DNA of 57,521 nt, from contig JAEESS010000009.1 of assembly GCA_016286445.1 (NCBI GenBank), forward strand, positions 1 through 57,521, given 5' to 3'. Positions within the stretch are counted from its first letter, which is position 1. Each line of letters opens with the position of its first letter. The translations under genes and the position numbers were made by a program. Origin of the DNA: Bacillota bacterium. Its GTDB lineage: Bacteria > Bacillota > Clostridia > Christensenellales > CAG-138. Positions 42,799 to 49,332 of the stretch are shown one piece after another. The notes below the pieces were generated by a model. The model was given only the letters and a program-made list of their open reading frames with translations, did not search any database and was not told the origin of the DNA.

Positions 42799-43542
42799 TT
42801 ATTTCGCCCCGTTCGATTTCAGTCCGCCGAAGCGCCGTTCGCGCCCGGCAAAGTCACGCATCGCCTTGATGAGCTCGTCGCGCGAAAAGTCCGGCCACTT
42901 GACGTCGGTAAAGTACAGCTCCGCGTACGCGATCTGCCACAGCAGAAAGTTCGACACGCGCTCGTCGCCGCCGGTGCGTATGAGAAGGTCCACGTCGCCG
43001 GAGTCCGCGGTGTACAGATTGCGCGAGATCGCGTCCTCATCCGGATCGTCATCCTGCGCAAACGCCAGCTTCATAGCGCGGACGAGCTCGGCTCTGCCGC
43101 CGTAGTTCAGCGCGATATTGAGTTTCAATCCGGGATTCGCCGCGGTCTTCACCTCCGCGGCGCGGACCGTTTCCTGCACCGCGGTCGGAAACCAACTGAG
43201 GTCGCCGATGCTTTTGATACGCACGGCGTTTGCGTGCAGCTCTTCGATCTCGCGGTTGAAATACTCGATCAGAAGTCCGCACAGGATGCCGATCTCCTCC
43301 TTCGGGCGCTTGCGGTTTTCGGTCGAAAACGCATAGATCGTCAGCGATTCGACGCCGACGTCCGAAGTGAAGCGAATGATGTCCCTGAGAGCATTTACGC
43401 CGGCGCGATGTCCCGCGCCGCGCGGCATGCCCTTTGCGGTCGCCCAGCGGCCGTTGCCGTCCATGACGATCGCAATGTGCTTCGGAATGCGGTCCGGATT
43501 GAGTCCGAACGCTCTGATCTCCTGATCCGAATACTTCTTCAT
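42799..43542 (-). CDS. uppS: Isoprenyl transferase (undecaprenyl diphosphate synthase)
   Basis: 247 residues. The cis-prenyltransferase pattern is complete: HIAIVMDGNGRWATAKGMPRGAGHRAGV (catalytic Asp and diphosphate-binding Arg), STENRKRPKEEI and RTGGDERVSNFLLWQIAYAELYF. It makes the C55 carrier for cell-wall polymers, which feeds the PBP found elsewhere in this window. The start ATG has the SD TAGGAG. It is cut off from frr by a repeat-rich kilobase, so its transcription may depend on readthrough of that block or on a promoter within it. Confidence 0.96.
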   Translation of the reverse strand: MKKYSDQEIRAFGLNPDRIPKHIAIVMDGNGRWATAKGMPRGAGHRAGVNALRDIIRFTSDVGVESLTIYAFSTENRKRPKEEIGILCGLLIEYFNREIEELHANAVRIKSIGDLSWFPTAVQETVRAAEVKTAANPGLKLNIALNYGGRAELVRAMKLAFAQDDDPDEDAISRNLYTADSGDVDLLIRTGGDERVSNFLLWQIAYAELYFTDVKWPDFSRDELIKAMRDFAGRERRFGGLKSNGAK

Positions 43543-43610
43543 GCGGTTCTCCTATCGAACAAGCGGGGGCTGTCGCGTCAATCGCAACGCCCCCTGATTT
43601 GTGTGTTTTA

Positions 43611-43757
43611 ACAACCCTCCCGTCAGCCTTCGGATGCCACCCTCCCTTGCACAGGGAGGGCAAGTCTCCCGTCAGCCTTCGGATGCCACCCTCCCTTGCA
43701 CAGGGAAGGCAGGTCTTTTGCCAGTCTTTGACTGCCACCCTTCCTTTAACACTTCGC
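43611..43757. repeat. 49-base tandem palindromic repeat array, left copy
   Basis: Three units begin at 43638, 43687 and 43736, each with the core CACCCTCCCTTGCACAGGGA and spacer GTCAGCCTTCGG or a variant; the exact period is 49. The palindrome is CCCTCCC-TTGCACA-GGGAGGG. The block opens with AACAACCCTCCCGTCAGCC, the same sequence that opens the right-hand array at 44343. The third unit is interrupted after CCCTTCCTTT by the duplicated cassette that follows and resumes at 43875 (CCACAGGGAGGGCAAG). Confidence 0.85.
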
Positions 43758-43759
43758 TT

Positions 43760-43874
43760 CCACTCCGCGTACGCTTCGTTACGGCGGTAGATCGCGCGCT
43801 TCCCGCGCGTACCATGCTCCACTCCGCGTACGCTTCGTTACGGCGGTAGATCGCGCGCTTCCCGCGCGTACCAT
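43760..43874. repeat. 56-base direct duplication nested in a palindromic repeat
   Basis: Two identical 56-base copies (43760-43815 and 43819-43874) separated by GCT, starting CCACTCCGCGTACGCTTCGT and ending GCGCGTACCAT. The pair lies inside the loop of a 49-base unit. A diverged relative (CACTCCGCTGACGCTTCGTTA) occurs at 49174-49194. Confidence 0.8.
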
Positions 43875-43901
43875 CCACAGGGAGGGCAAGTCTCAATCAG
43901 C

Positions 43902-44342
43902 CTAATCTCTTGGCTCCCCTGTGCAAGGGGAGCTGTCACCGACAGGTGACTGAGGGGTTGTCGTCATTCCTTCCATTGCTGCTTTAACATGCAGGTCGAT
44001 CCATTCACATACGCCCCGAAAACTCCTGTTTATCTCGTTATTTGGAATGCGAAGGACCGTACAATTATACTTTTGCAAAAACAACGCGCGCTTTGCATCG
44101 TGTATCTGCCCCGCCGATTGATAATGCTGTGACCCGTCCAGTTCAACGACCAGTCTTGCCTTTGCGCAATAGAAATCTGCAATATACTGCCCAAGAACCT
44201 TCTGCCGGTAAAACCGGACAGGATACTCCCGCAAGAAGCAATACCACAGACGGCGCTCCTCCTCGGTCATGTTCTTCCGAAGCGCTTTTGCATTTCCGGT
44301 CAGTCTTGCATTGTGCTTTCTGGGAATGACTGTGTTCTGCAT
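43902..44342 (-). CDS. DUF559 (endonuclease-like) protein embedded in repeats
   Basis: 146 residues of the DUF559 group, which has a very-short-patch-repair/restriction-endonuclease-like fold. Visible landmarks are RKNMTEEERRLWYCFLR, FYRQKVLGQYIADFYCAKARLVVELDGSQHY (candidate catalytic Asp and Glu) and CTVLRIPNNEI. The ATG at 44342 has its SD, GGGAGGG, inside the adjacent repeat array. The last 20 or so residues (TTPQSPVGDSSPCTGEP) are encoded by another repeat element. So both ends of the gene are built from repeats. It lies between the PASTA-like gene and uppS and looks inserted into the core cluster. DNA cleavage is inferred from the family. Confidence 0.8.
   Translation of the reverse strand: MQNTVIPRKHNARLTGNAKALRKNMTEEERRLWYCFLREYPVRFYRQKVLGQYIADFYCAKARLVVELDGSQHYQSAGQIHDAKRALFLQKYNCTVLRIPNNEINRSFRGVCEWIDLHVKAAMEGMTTTPQSPVGDSSPCTGEPRD
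43912..43962. repeat. Palindromic repeat element B, copy 1
   Basis: Two adjoining stems: GGCTCCCCTGTGCAAGGGGAGC and GTCACC-GACA-GGTGAC, followed by TGAGGGGTTGTC. It overlaps the 3' end of the DUF559 gene and codes for its C-terminal tail. Related copies are at 44521-44672, 47449-47498 and 49285-49331. Confidence 0.8.
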
Positions 44343-44520
44343 AACAACCCTCCCGTCAGCCTTCGGCTGCCACCCTCCCTTGCACAGGGAGGGCAAGTCT
44401 TTTGCCGATCTTTGGCTGCCACCCTCCCTTGCACATGGAGGGCAAGTCTTTTTCCGATCTTTGGCTGCCACCCTCCCTTGCACAGGGAGGGCAAGTCTTT
44501 TGCCAGTCTTCGGCTGCCTT
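44343..44520. repeat. 49-base tandem palindromic repeat array, right copy
   Basis: Units with core CACCCTCCCTTGCACAGGGA begin at 44371, 44420 and 44469, again exactly 49 bases apart, joined by TTTTGCCGATCTTTGGCTGC-like spacers that are near-identical. It opens with AACAACCCTCCCGTCAGCC. Its first unit supplies the Shine-Dalgarno of the DUF559 gene. Confidence 0.85.
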
Positions 44521-44672
44521 GGCTCCCCTGTGCAAGGGGGCGGAGCTGAACGCCCGCTGTGCGGGATGAAGCGAAGCGGAAGCGCGGATCGAACAAGGAG
44601 AAAACCACACAGTGCGTGGTTTTCGACTATGTAAGACCATCGCTGTCACCGTCAGGTGACTGAGGGGTTGTC
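44521..44672. repeat. Palindromic repeat element B, copy 2, split by a 100-base cassette
   Basis: GGCTCCCCTGTGCAAGGGGG (44521-44540) and GCTGTCACCGTCAGGTGACTGAGGGG (44642 onward) are the two halves of element B. Between them is about 100 bases starting CGGAGCTGAACGCC and ending GTAAGACCAT. The right half codes for the C-terminal residues of the PASTA-like protein. Confidence 0.75.
44600..44624 (-). terminator. Possible terminator hairpin inside the nested cassette
   Basis: Minus strand AAAACCACGCACTGTGTGGTTTTCTCC: an eight-pair stem followed by TTTTCTCC, just after the stop of the PASTA-like gene. If it works, it would lower transcription from frr into uppS. Confidence 0.4.
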
Positions 44673-44857
44673 ACCTCCGTCTTGAACGCGGACCAGTAGA
44701 CGACCGTTTCCGATTCGGTTTCGGTCGTTTTGATGATGCGGCGATCGTTGCCTTTTCCGCCCTTTTTTGAACGTACCTCAACGAGACGGACAGGCTTCCC
44801 CGCCGTCTCAAGGCGCTTGACCGCCGTTTCCGGGTCCAGTCCGAGCACGTTCGTCAA
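44627..44857 (-). CDS. Small PASTA-like protein with repeat-derived tail
   Basis: 76 residues. The first 60 resemble a single PASTA domain ([27 protein letters not shown], then [19 protein letters not shown]). The start codon is TTG at 44857, overlapping the frr stop as TTGA, with AAGGAG upstream in frr. It has no signal peptide or membrane segment, so it is not a wall-sensing kinase domain; a cytoplasmic role is likely but unknown. The last residues ([14 protein letters not shown]) are encoded by palindromic element B and parallel the tail of the DUF559 protein. Confidence 0.7.
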
Positions 44858-45411
44858 ACCGACAGGATCTCCTTTTCCTTCGCCGCAAGGATGGCGTCGA
44901 TGTCCTTGATGAACTCGTCGGTCATCTTCTGTCCCTTCTCCTCAAGGCGCTTCTGATCGTCCTCGGTGATGAGACTGTCCTTCTTCTGCTTTTTGATCTG
45001 GTCGTTCAGATCGCGGCGGATGTTGCGGATCGCGACCTTGCTCTCCTCACCCTTTTTGCGGACGGTCTTGACGAGGTCCTTTCTGCGCTCCTCGGTCAGC
45101 TCCGGGAACACAAGACGGATGATCTTGCCGTCGTTCGCCGGGTTGATGCCGAGATCGGACTTCTGGATCGCCTTCTCGACCGCAGGGATCATCTTGGTAT
45201 CCCACAGCGCAATGATCAGCATGCGCGGCTCCGGCGTGGAGATGTTGCCGAGCTGGTTGATGGGCGTCATCGTGCCGTAATAGTCCACGGTGATGCGGTC
45301 CAGCACCTGCGCGTTTGCGCGGCCTGCGCGGAGGCTCGAAAGCTCCGCCTTCAGGACGTTCAGTGTCTTTGTCATTCTCTCTTTGATTTCATCGATCAGT
45401 TCCATCGGCAT
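44854..45411 (-). CDS. frr: Ribosome recycling factor
   Basis: 185 residues, the normal size. It splits post-termination ribosomes together with EF-G. Family sequence is clear: [71 protein letters not shown] and [16 protein letters not shown]. The ATG at 45411 has the SD AAGGAGGG. It lies 61 bases after pyrH in the conserved order pyrH-frr. Confidence 0.97.
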
Positions 45412-47448: not shown

Positions 47449-47555
47449 CGAGCTCCCCTTGTCAGGGGAGCTGGCGCCGCAGGCGACTGAGGGGTAGTTT
47501 ATGCAATACTACCCTCCTGTCTCGCTTGGCGAGCCACCCTCCCTGACAAGGGAGG
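47449..47555. repeat. Palindromic repeat elements between the duplicated gene ends
   Basis: Element B, copy 3 (AGCTCCCCTTGTCAGGGGAGCT then GGCGCC and GACTGAGGGGTAG, 47449-47498), and a facing element with TCGCTTGGCGAGCCACCCTC and CCTCCCTGACAAGGGAGG (47520-47555). The two are in opposite orientation, like a composite inverted element. Confidence 0.75.
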
Positions 47556-49135: not shown

Positions 49136-49331
49136 TTTTCTCCCCCTCCGTCTCGGCAAAGCCTCGACGGAACCACTCCGCTGACGCTTCGTTACACAGG
49201 AGCCGTCGCGCGACGACGCACTGCGTTGTCTACCGCGTCGCCATCTCTCCCCCGTCAGGTGGAGGTCGATGCACACAAGTCTGAGCTCCCCTTGTGAGGG
49301 GAGCTGTCAGCTTTAGCTGACTGAAGGGTAG
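49136..49331. repeat. Repeat-derived intergenic sequence with element B, copy 4
   Basis: The gap between the sigma gene and ftsY holds CCGTCTCGGCAAAGCCTCGACGG (palindromic, 49148-49170), a relative of the nested 56-base cassette (CACTCCGCTGACGCTTCGTTA), a stretch ending GTCGCCAT at 49244, CTCTCCCCCGTCAGGTGGAGG, and element B (AGCTCCCCTTGTGAGGGGAGCT, 49285-49306, then TCAGC/GCTGA and CTGAAGGGTAG). No gene is visible. Confidence 0.75.
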
Positions 49332-49332
49332 T

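Follow-up and report, generated by a model that had tools for sequence, protein, structure and literature searches.

Results

A DUF559 gene bounded by repeat blocks between frr and uppS

The window, that is, the whole stretch of 57,521 nucleotides that was analysed, contains a DUF559 gene between two REPIN-like repeat blocks, and on the minus strand the order reads frr, a PASTA-like ORF, repeat block, DUF559, repeat block and uppS:

44854-45411, minus strand: frr (PF01765, E 3e-69), the upstream flank of the filled site
44627-44857, minus strand: PASTA-like ORF (PF03793, 17.4 bits, under the cut-off of 23.2), its native end replaced by the insertion
44344-44671, minus strand: upstream REPIN-like block, outward tags GGGTTGT at 44344 (-) and 44657 (+)
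43902-44342, minus strand: DUF559 gene (PF04480, E 6e-28, 97.4 bits against a cut-off of 20.6)
43611-43961, minus strand: downstream REPIN-like block, outward tags GGGTTGT at 43611 (-) and 43947 (+)
42799-43542, minus strand: uppS (PF01255, E 7e-79), the downstream flank of the filled site
43909-43962, plus strand: element B and the associated hairpin (DUF559 tail), from repeat comparison
44642-44672, plus strand: partner copy of element B (tail of the PASTA-like ORF), from repeat comparison

Both blocks share the outer tag GGGTTGT, which faces outward at either end. The ATG of the DUF559 gene (44342-44340) lies one base past the outer tag of the upstream block, and on the minus strand GGGAGGGTTGTTATG places GGGAGG a few bases 5' of this ATG; the repeat thus supplies the Shine-Dalgarno sequence. 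As the initial annotation had proposed, it belongs to a 49-base unit; the GGGAGG is the outer end of this unit, the hairpin of which recurs at 43637, 43686, 44370, 44419 and 44468 with a spacing of 49 within each cluster. The DUF559 stop lies inside the downstream block (the ORF ends in ..TTTPQSPVGDSSPCTGEPRD followed by the stop codon), and the repeat therefore supplies a C-terminal tail, TTPQSPVGDSSPCTGEPRD and stop, which starts in element B and extends 10 residues beyond the TTPQSPVGDS that the same annotation had already ascribed to this element. The PASTA-like ORF runs into the upstream block, which codes its tail; here, too, the predicted source of the ending was found, namely the partner copy of element B (43932-43962 and 44642-44672 are 97% identical).

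At gathering thresholds, Rfam returned nothing but a tRNA for the whole window. Two identical 57-base copies with a start spacing of 59 are present at 43759-43874 within one hairpin of the downstream block, and the same block of a related genome (G014) has a sequence like them, also within a hairpin; the 57-base sequence seems to be a second repeat nested in the first. Another nested sequence (CGCCCGCTGTGCGGGATGAAGCGAAGCGG..) interrupts the upstream block at 44537-44641, and similar stretches occur at two genus loci (L022 and L025). Two more class-3-type tags, neither of them close to a DUF559 gene in the window, lie at 47482-47498 and 49316-49332; they have 2 and 3 mismatches, respectively, to the class-1 probe, and the former fits the class-3 pattern.

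The DUF559 protein is a predicted nuclease

The AlphaFold model of the window protein (pLDDT 84, pTM 0.73) found its best fold match in 3HRL (NGO0050 of N. gonorrhoeae, E 1.6e-5), followed by 3R3P, the homing endonuclease I-Bth0305I (E 3.7e-4), while the match to 1VSR was weak (E 0.5). Profile comparison gave 3HRL at E 2e-19 and 3R3P at E 0.005, and the invariant residues of the family include R46, Q47, D56, E67, D69, H73, D82 and R85. YcjD of E. coli has been assigned to the PD-(D/E)XK superfamily, with Vsr recovered at 1e-5 (PMC1189080). PADLOC gave two weak matches for the window protein (E 3e-5 and 4e-5), both to restriction-like models, and none for the E. coli protein. DUF559 is thus likely, judging from these models, to be a small Vsr/I-Bth0305I-like nuclease; for the processing role suggested by the initial annotation it is a candidate on the strength of its fold and its association with the repeats.

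Filled and empty sites in the genus

The stretch upstream of uppS was surveyed in 23 genomes of the genus, of which three were filled (G000, G014 and G004, with frr-uppS gaps of 1315, 1004 and 1062 bp, respectively), 18 were empty (gaps of 248-339 bp), one held a filled fragment (in G001, a DUF559 fragment adjoins a run of N) and one was unreadable (in G020, the contig stops short of the site). The PASTA-like gene is kept at this position in 21/21 genomes in which frr was found. It has its own ending in the empty genomes, for example FKTEVDT before the stop, and its native end is replaced in all three filled genomes, with EIDNPSVT in G014, which indicates that the tails come from 3'-end insertion into a conserved gene. 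The DUF559 gene of G004 (L022) ends in GDNPSVT, another frame of the same repeat. Since the tails differ among filled genomes, the frame is not fixed; the single orientation and frame claimed by the initial annotation are too strong a statement, as the frame is another one in these two relatives. Because the empty genomes belong to other species, no target duplication was definable at frr-uppS, and the fact that neither a target duplication nor a precise young junction could be defined counts against the reading that DUF559 spreads the repeats.

Repeats flank DUF559 genes at varied sites

The genome of the window has five DUF559 genes, all five with palindromic repeats on at least one side, the classes of which differ. 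A DUF559 match was present in 14 of the 23 genus genomes, in one of the 14 as the Vsr-like L018 alone. At the genus-locus flanks inspected (from 30 loci, L018 aside), repeats were found upstream, downstream or on both sides, with a repeat upstream and none downstream at L005 and L021, and a repeat downstream and none upstream at L004, L009, L025, L029 and L030; the downstream side of L013 has a terminator-like hairpin only. Seven tag groups were distinguished by eye among the genus loci, and by the same means recurrent sites were recognised at frr-uppS and beside ribF-, uvrA- and clpX-like neighbours. Where the host gene is uvrA-like (named by eye), its stop codon and the DUF559 ATG share a base in some genomes (TGATG, TAATG). 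For the remoter DUF559-domain proteins from a phylum search, the flanks inspected gave the impression of few such repeats.

Of all DUF559 matches in the genus, that of L018 (in G006) is the weakest; by eye it resembles a true Vsr, and it could serve as a contrast for the repeat link. The DUF559 copies of L019 and L029 are interrupted by a stop codon with the repeats still adjoining, as expected of a decaying mobile gene. The DUF559 frame of L061 (8001-9200) stays open across the repeat (TTPQSQCAHWDSSPCTGEL) and continues into an ORF of 400 residues, the end of which resembles RNase HI by eye; the repeat would here act as a protein linker.

Repeats are enriched beside DUF559

A hairpin with a stem of at least 8 lies near the stop of 54/61 DUF559 genes compared with 170/668 other ORFs of the same loci (p 9e-23), 20 of the 79 loci in this test being without a recognised DUF559 ORF. 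With stems of at least 9 there was no enrichment (14/61 versus 119/668, p 0.30), because the stems adjacent to DUF559 are mostly shorter. Across Clostridia, a repeat-like hairpin was found within about 300 bp of 70/73 DUF559 genes and 87/452 ordinary genes (p 9e-39). The initial annotation had made its link depend on whether DUF559 genes of related genomes usually lie next to such repeats, and both comparisons bear it out.

Tags within 500 bp of a DUF559 domain numbered 14/99 for class 1 (0.16 expected; 103 family genomes), 16/144 for class 4 (0.18 expected) and 8/42 for class 3 (0.07 expected), the latter two in the 23 genus genomes. Tags thus occur beside DUF559 genes about 90-fold above chance, and chance is excluded as the cause of this proximity. 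At class-2 loci, 24/45 neighbouring tag pairs enclose a gap of 300-399 bp in an orientation compatible with the DUF559 gene. Class 2 is frequent in other Oscillospiraceae (103 tags in 58/79 loci); the class-2 pattern TGACKGRRGGGATTGT proved useless across the family, with 1 match in 103 family genomes. Using a fixed list of patterns, the stop was found within the repeat for 12/25 DUF559 genes of the genus, 50/73 of named Clostridia and 2/17 of the family, and a tag directly before the start for 17/25, 36/73 and 5/17, respectively.

Each DUF559 clade has its own tag

On a protein tree of 22 genus genes with six tags, five tag changes were counted, which is the minimum, the lowest of 300 shuffles being 10; on the tree of 86 genes overall there were 8 changes, against a lowest of 22 in 300 shuffles. 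These counts left out 37 of 123 genes without a recognised tag. When one gene per site was retained (by eye, 11 genes), five tag changes remained, and 1.5% of 1000 shuffles were as low. Each DUF559 protein clade has its own tag. Together with the filled and empty frr-uppS sites (18/23 genus genomes empty, all of other species), this agreement supports the suggestion of the initial annotation that repeats and DUF559 form a mobile unit.

Dispersed copies show a related pattern. Genomes with a class-1 DUF559 gene carry 12, 6, 28 and 10 class-1 copies versus a mean of 1.05, and the means are 14.4 versus 4.0 for class 4 and 4.8 versus 1.0 for class 3. The excess persisted after subtraction of the copies adjacent to DUF559 (p 0.0015, 0.004 and 0.02 for classes 1, 4 and 3), in which one G001 copy was removed without a located place, a choice that acts against the spreading reading. 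When classes were permuted within genomes, the class specificity of copy number was not significant (p 0.08) and is therefore weak. G021 has 8 class-1 copies and no class-1 gene was found in it, G018 has 10 class-4 copies and no DUF559, and G001 and G002, which lack a class-4 gene, have 16 and 10 class-4 copies.

The association extends beyond Clostridia

In a plasmid collection, 36 records, some of which are chromosomes judging by their size, encode a DUF559 relative, and 26 loci were inspected, from Deinococcus, Rhizobiaceae, Azospirillum, sphingomonads, cyanobacteria, Photobacterium, E. coli and N. gonorrhoeae. A repeat-like hairpin lay within 300 bp at 24/26 DUF559 loci versus 6/55 control genes (p 7e-13), the 26 loci not all being independent since three are from Azospirillum brasilense with like repeats; the two without a hairpin within this distance are L204 (Picosynechococcus) and L206 (P. 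aeruginosa). The link between repeat and DUF559 extends to Deinococcus, Proteobacteria and cyanobacteria. DUF559 often sits between apparent operon partners, such as sufB/sufC, two transhydrogenase genes or paaD/paaZ, and in three Deinococcus species (L183, L194 and L198) it occupies different junctions of the hpa cluster. A mirror-image third block was present on the outer side of 35/83 hairpins beside cross-phylum DUF559 (shuffled 2, other side 5) and, in Clostridia, of a minority of 53/334 hairpins (shuffled 7, other side 7).

The E. coli DUF559 gene is the annotated ycjD, located between sapF and fabI and present in 3365/5426 genomes; it exists in K-12 (PMC12817139), and we found it in BL21. 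The 61-base repeat beside it occurs at 1-33 places per genome (median 19) in 5376/5426 genomes and is built as GGGGAGAGGG-TTA-GGGTGAGGGG. It looks like the BoxC/PIT/TM-ECO repeat of type A, judged on the description of the build in PMC4666352. The discovery of BoxC dates from the 1990s, and more than 260 genomes are reported to contain a G/C-rich motif of this kind; inverted A+B pairs and 23 copies in MG1655 have been reported, BoxC motifs are associated with instability, and around the E. coli sites the survey encountered no activity that would confer mobility (PMC4666352).

In 60 of 5375 records picked at even steps, the 37 genomes with ycjD had 12-25 BoxC-like places (median 19) versus 1-16 (median 3) in the 23 without (p 2e-10). 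The distribution of ycjD tracks phylogroup, with polymorphism inside phylogroups D and E (PMC12817139), and this contrast is therefore a correlation over few lineages. We also looked for a clean empty ycjD site; both ycjD-less regions inspected on the sapF-fabI side carry other genes instead (L209 and L210, with efflux genes or an SMI1/KNR4 gene), so that the site is variable and not simply empty. The efflux genes at the ycjD-less site have been described as eefRABCD (PMC12817139).

Discussion

The association of DUF559 with palindromic repeats is, in our view, practically certain. Our best reading is of a REPtron-like system in which DUF559, with no relationship to the HUH RAYTs, is the nuclease associated with the repeats, and we consider it fairly probable that it is the nuclease that spreads them. 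This reading builds on the anatomy of the locus, the filled and empty sites, the enrichment, the match between clade and tag, the spread over phyla and the predicted nuclease fold; repeat recognition, cutting and cutting-driven spread are what we infer from them. The window would then contain one filled site of a mobile unit composed of a REPIN-like block, DUF559 and a second REPIN-like block, with the repeats being BoxC-like pyrimidine/purine hairpins dispersed in many copies, frequently with a third block, in mirror image, on the side facing the outer tag. DUF559 would most likely recognise the repeat, either by its tag or in the form of an extruded hairpin, and cut it, thereby disseminating repeats into gene ends, occasionally with the DUF559 gene itself carried along, in a role that would parallel that of the HUH TnpA-REP/RAYT for GTAG REPs. 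The repeat copies without a matching gene in G021, G018, G001 and G002 speak against spreading by DUF559, as does the finding that E. coli genomes lacking ycjD keep 1-16 copies and that the contrast in copy number follows phylogroup.

Other explanations have to be weighed against the same evidence. DUF559 could act as a gene drive of the homing type, cutting insertion-less sites into which repair copies the whole block, with the repeats as conserved flanks from which the gene takes its start, stop and terminator, and which are multiplied by other means. The nearest characterised fold, that of the homing endonuclease I-Bth0305I, would suit such a drive, as would the recurrent sites, for example frr-uppS and the uvrA-like 3' end with the DUF559 ATG over the host stop; however, it leaves unexplained why dispersed repeats carry the tag of the resident DUF559 clade and why one gene type is found at many unrelated sites, and we regard it as unlikely. 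Even less likely, we think, is repeat housekeeping, in which DUF559 would nick or trim replication-stalling hairpins and triplexes and stay near the repeats by co-regulation without spreading them. It would fit the Vsr relation of YcjD (PMC1189080) and the instability tied to BoxC motifs (PMC4666352), but the DUF559 gene is patchy and found at different junctions in related species, like a mobile gene, and repeats persist in genomes without DUF559. That repeats merely collect at any dispensable gene or junction, DUF559 being an unrelated selfish or defence gene, strikes us as highly improbable: such a hairpin is also found near 87/452 ordinary clostridial genes and the window protein has its weak restriction-like PADLOC matches, yet hitchhiking of this kind is hard to reconcile with the roughly 90-fold enrichment, the clade-specific tags, the tag-to-tag fit of the gene and its recurrence over phyla.

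Returning to DUF559 as the spreading nuclease, a wider version would make DUF559/YcjD the dedicated enzyme of pan-bacterial mobile palindromes, comprising BoxC/triplex motifs and the clostridial repeats. The REPtron would then have been invented a second time with unrelated chemistry, around a Vsr-like nuclease that carries hairpin repeats, and the gene encoding it, to the ends of genes. On this version we are evenly divided. If true, it would provide a candidate mobility enzyme for BoxC-type repeats, for which no mobility gene was known (PMC4666352), as well as a function for the uncharacterised DUF559 family, for which a structure has been solved (3HRL), and would imply a separate origin of REP-like systems around each of two unrelated nucleases. 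With a candidate gene in E. coli K-12 and BL21, the question of mobility becomes testable.

Comparison with known systems

In the titles, openings of abstracts and text passages that a literature search covered (without preprints and most subscription journals), no link between DUF559 and repeats was found. CGTC REPs, palindromes said to have no dedicated transposase (PMC3733652), were considered as partners of DUF559 and set aside, as the tags beside DUF559 look by eye to be of another type; CGTC occurs inside some of these tags (by eye only), not as the described end, a CGTC foot on an AT-starting stem. The predicted fold of DUF559 is like that of Vsr and I-Bth0305I, from which it differs in that no repair context was seen and in that, at the loci inspected, the gene is free-standing between repeats and not located in an intron or intein.

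Likenesses exist to BoxC/PIT/TM-ECO, namely hairpins with a mirror third block, a copy beside ycjD with the described build and TTA loop, inverted pairs and a similar copy number (23 in MG1655 versus a median of 19 places). Clostridial repeats differ in having, by eye, one more small hairpin, which separates the stem from the tag, and where PMC4666352 gives no mobility gene, DUF559/ycjD is named here as a candidate.

REPtrons combine GTAG REPs with an HUH TnpA-REP/RAYT (PMC6006769, PMC3733652). DUF559 loci likewise have short outer-tagged hairpins that form inverted pairs (REPINs) and are dispersed in many copies, with repeats on the flanks of a nuclease gene and one enzyme type for each repeat type. 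Neither an HUH Y1 transposase gene at the repeats nor a GTAG foot was found in the tags and loci inspected, and the two partial Y1_Tnp matches of the window's genome are both on contigs without any listed tag; lacking both the HUH enzyme and the GTAG foot, the system is by membership not a REPtron. Its putative enzyme is PD-(D/E)XK/Vsr-like instead of HUH, its tags are CCCTC/GGGTTGT-like instead of a GTAG foot, and at many loci the gene starts and ends within repeats. By analogy, the DUF559 system thus resembles a REPtron in its arrangement.
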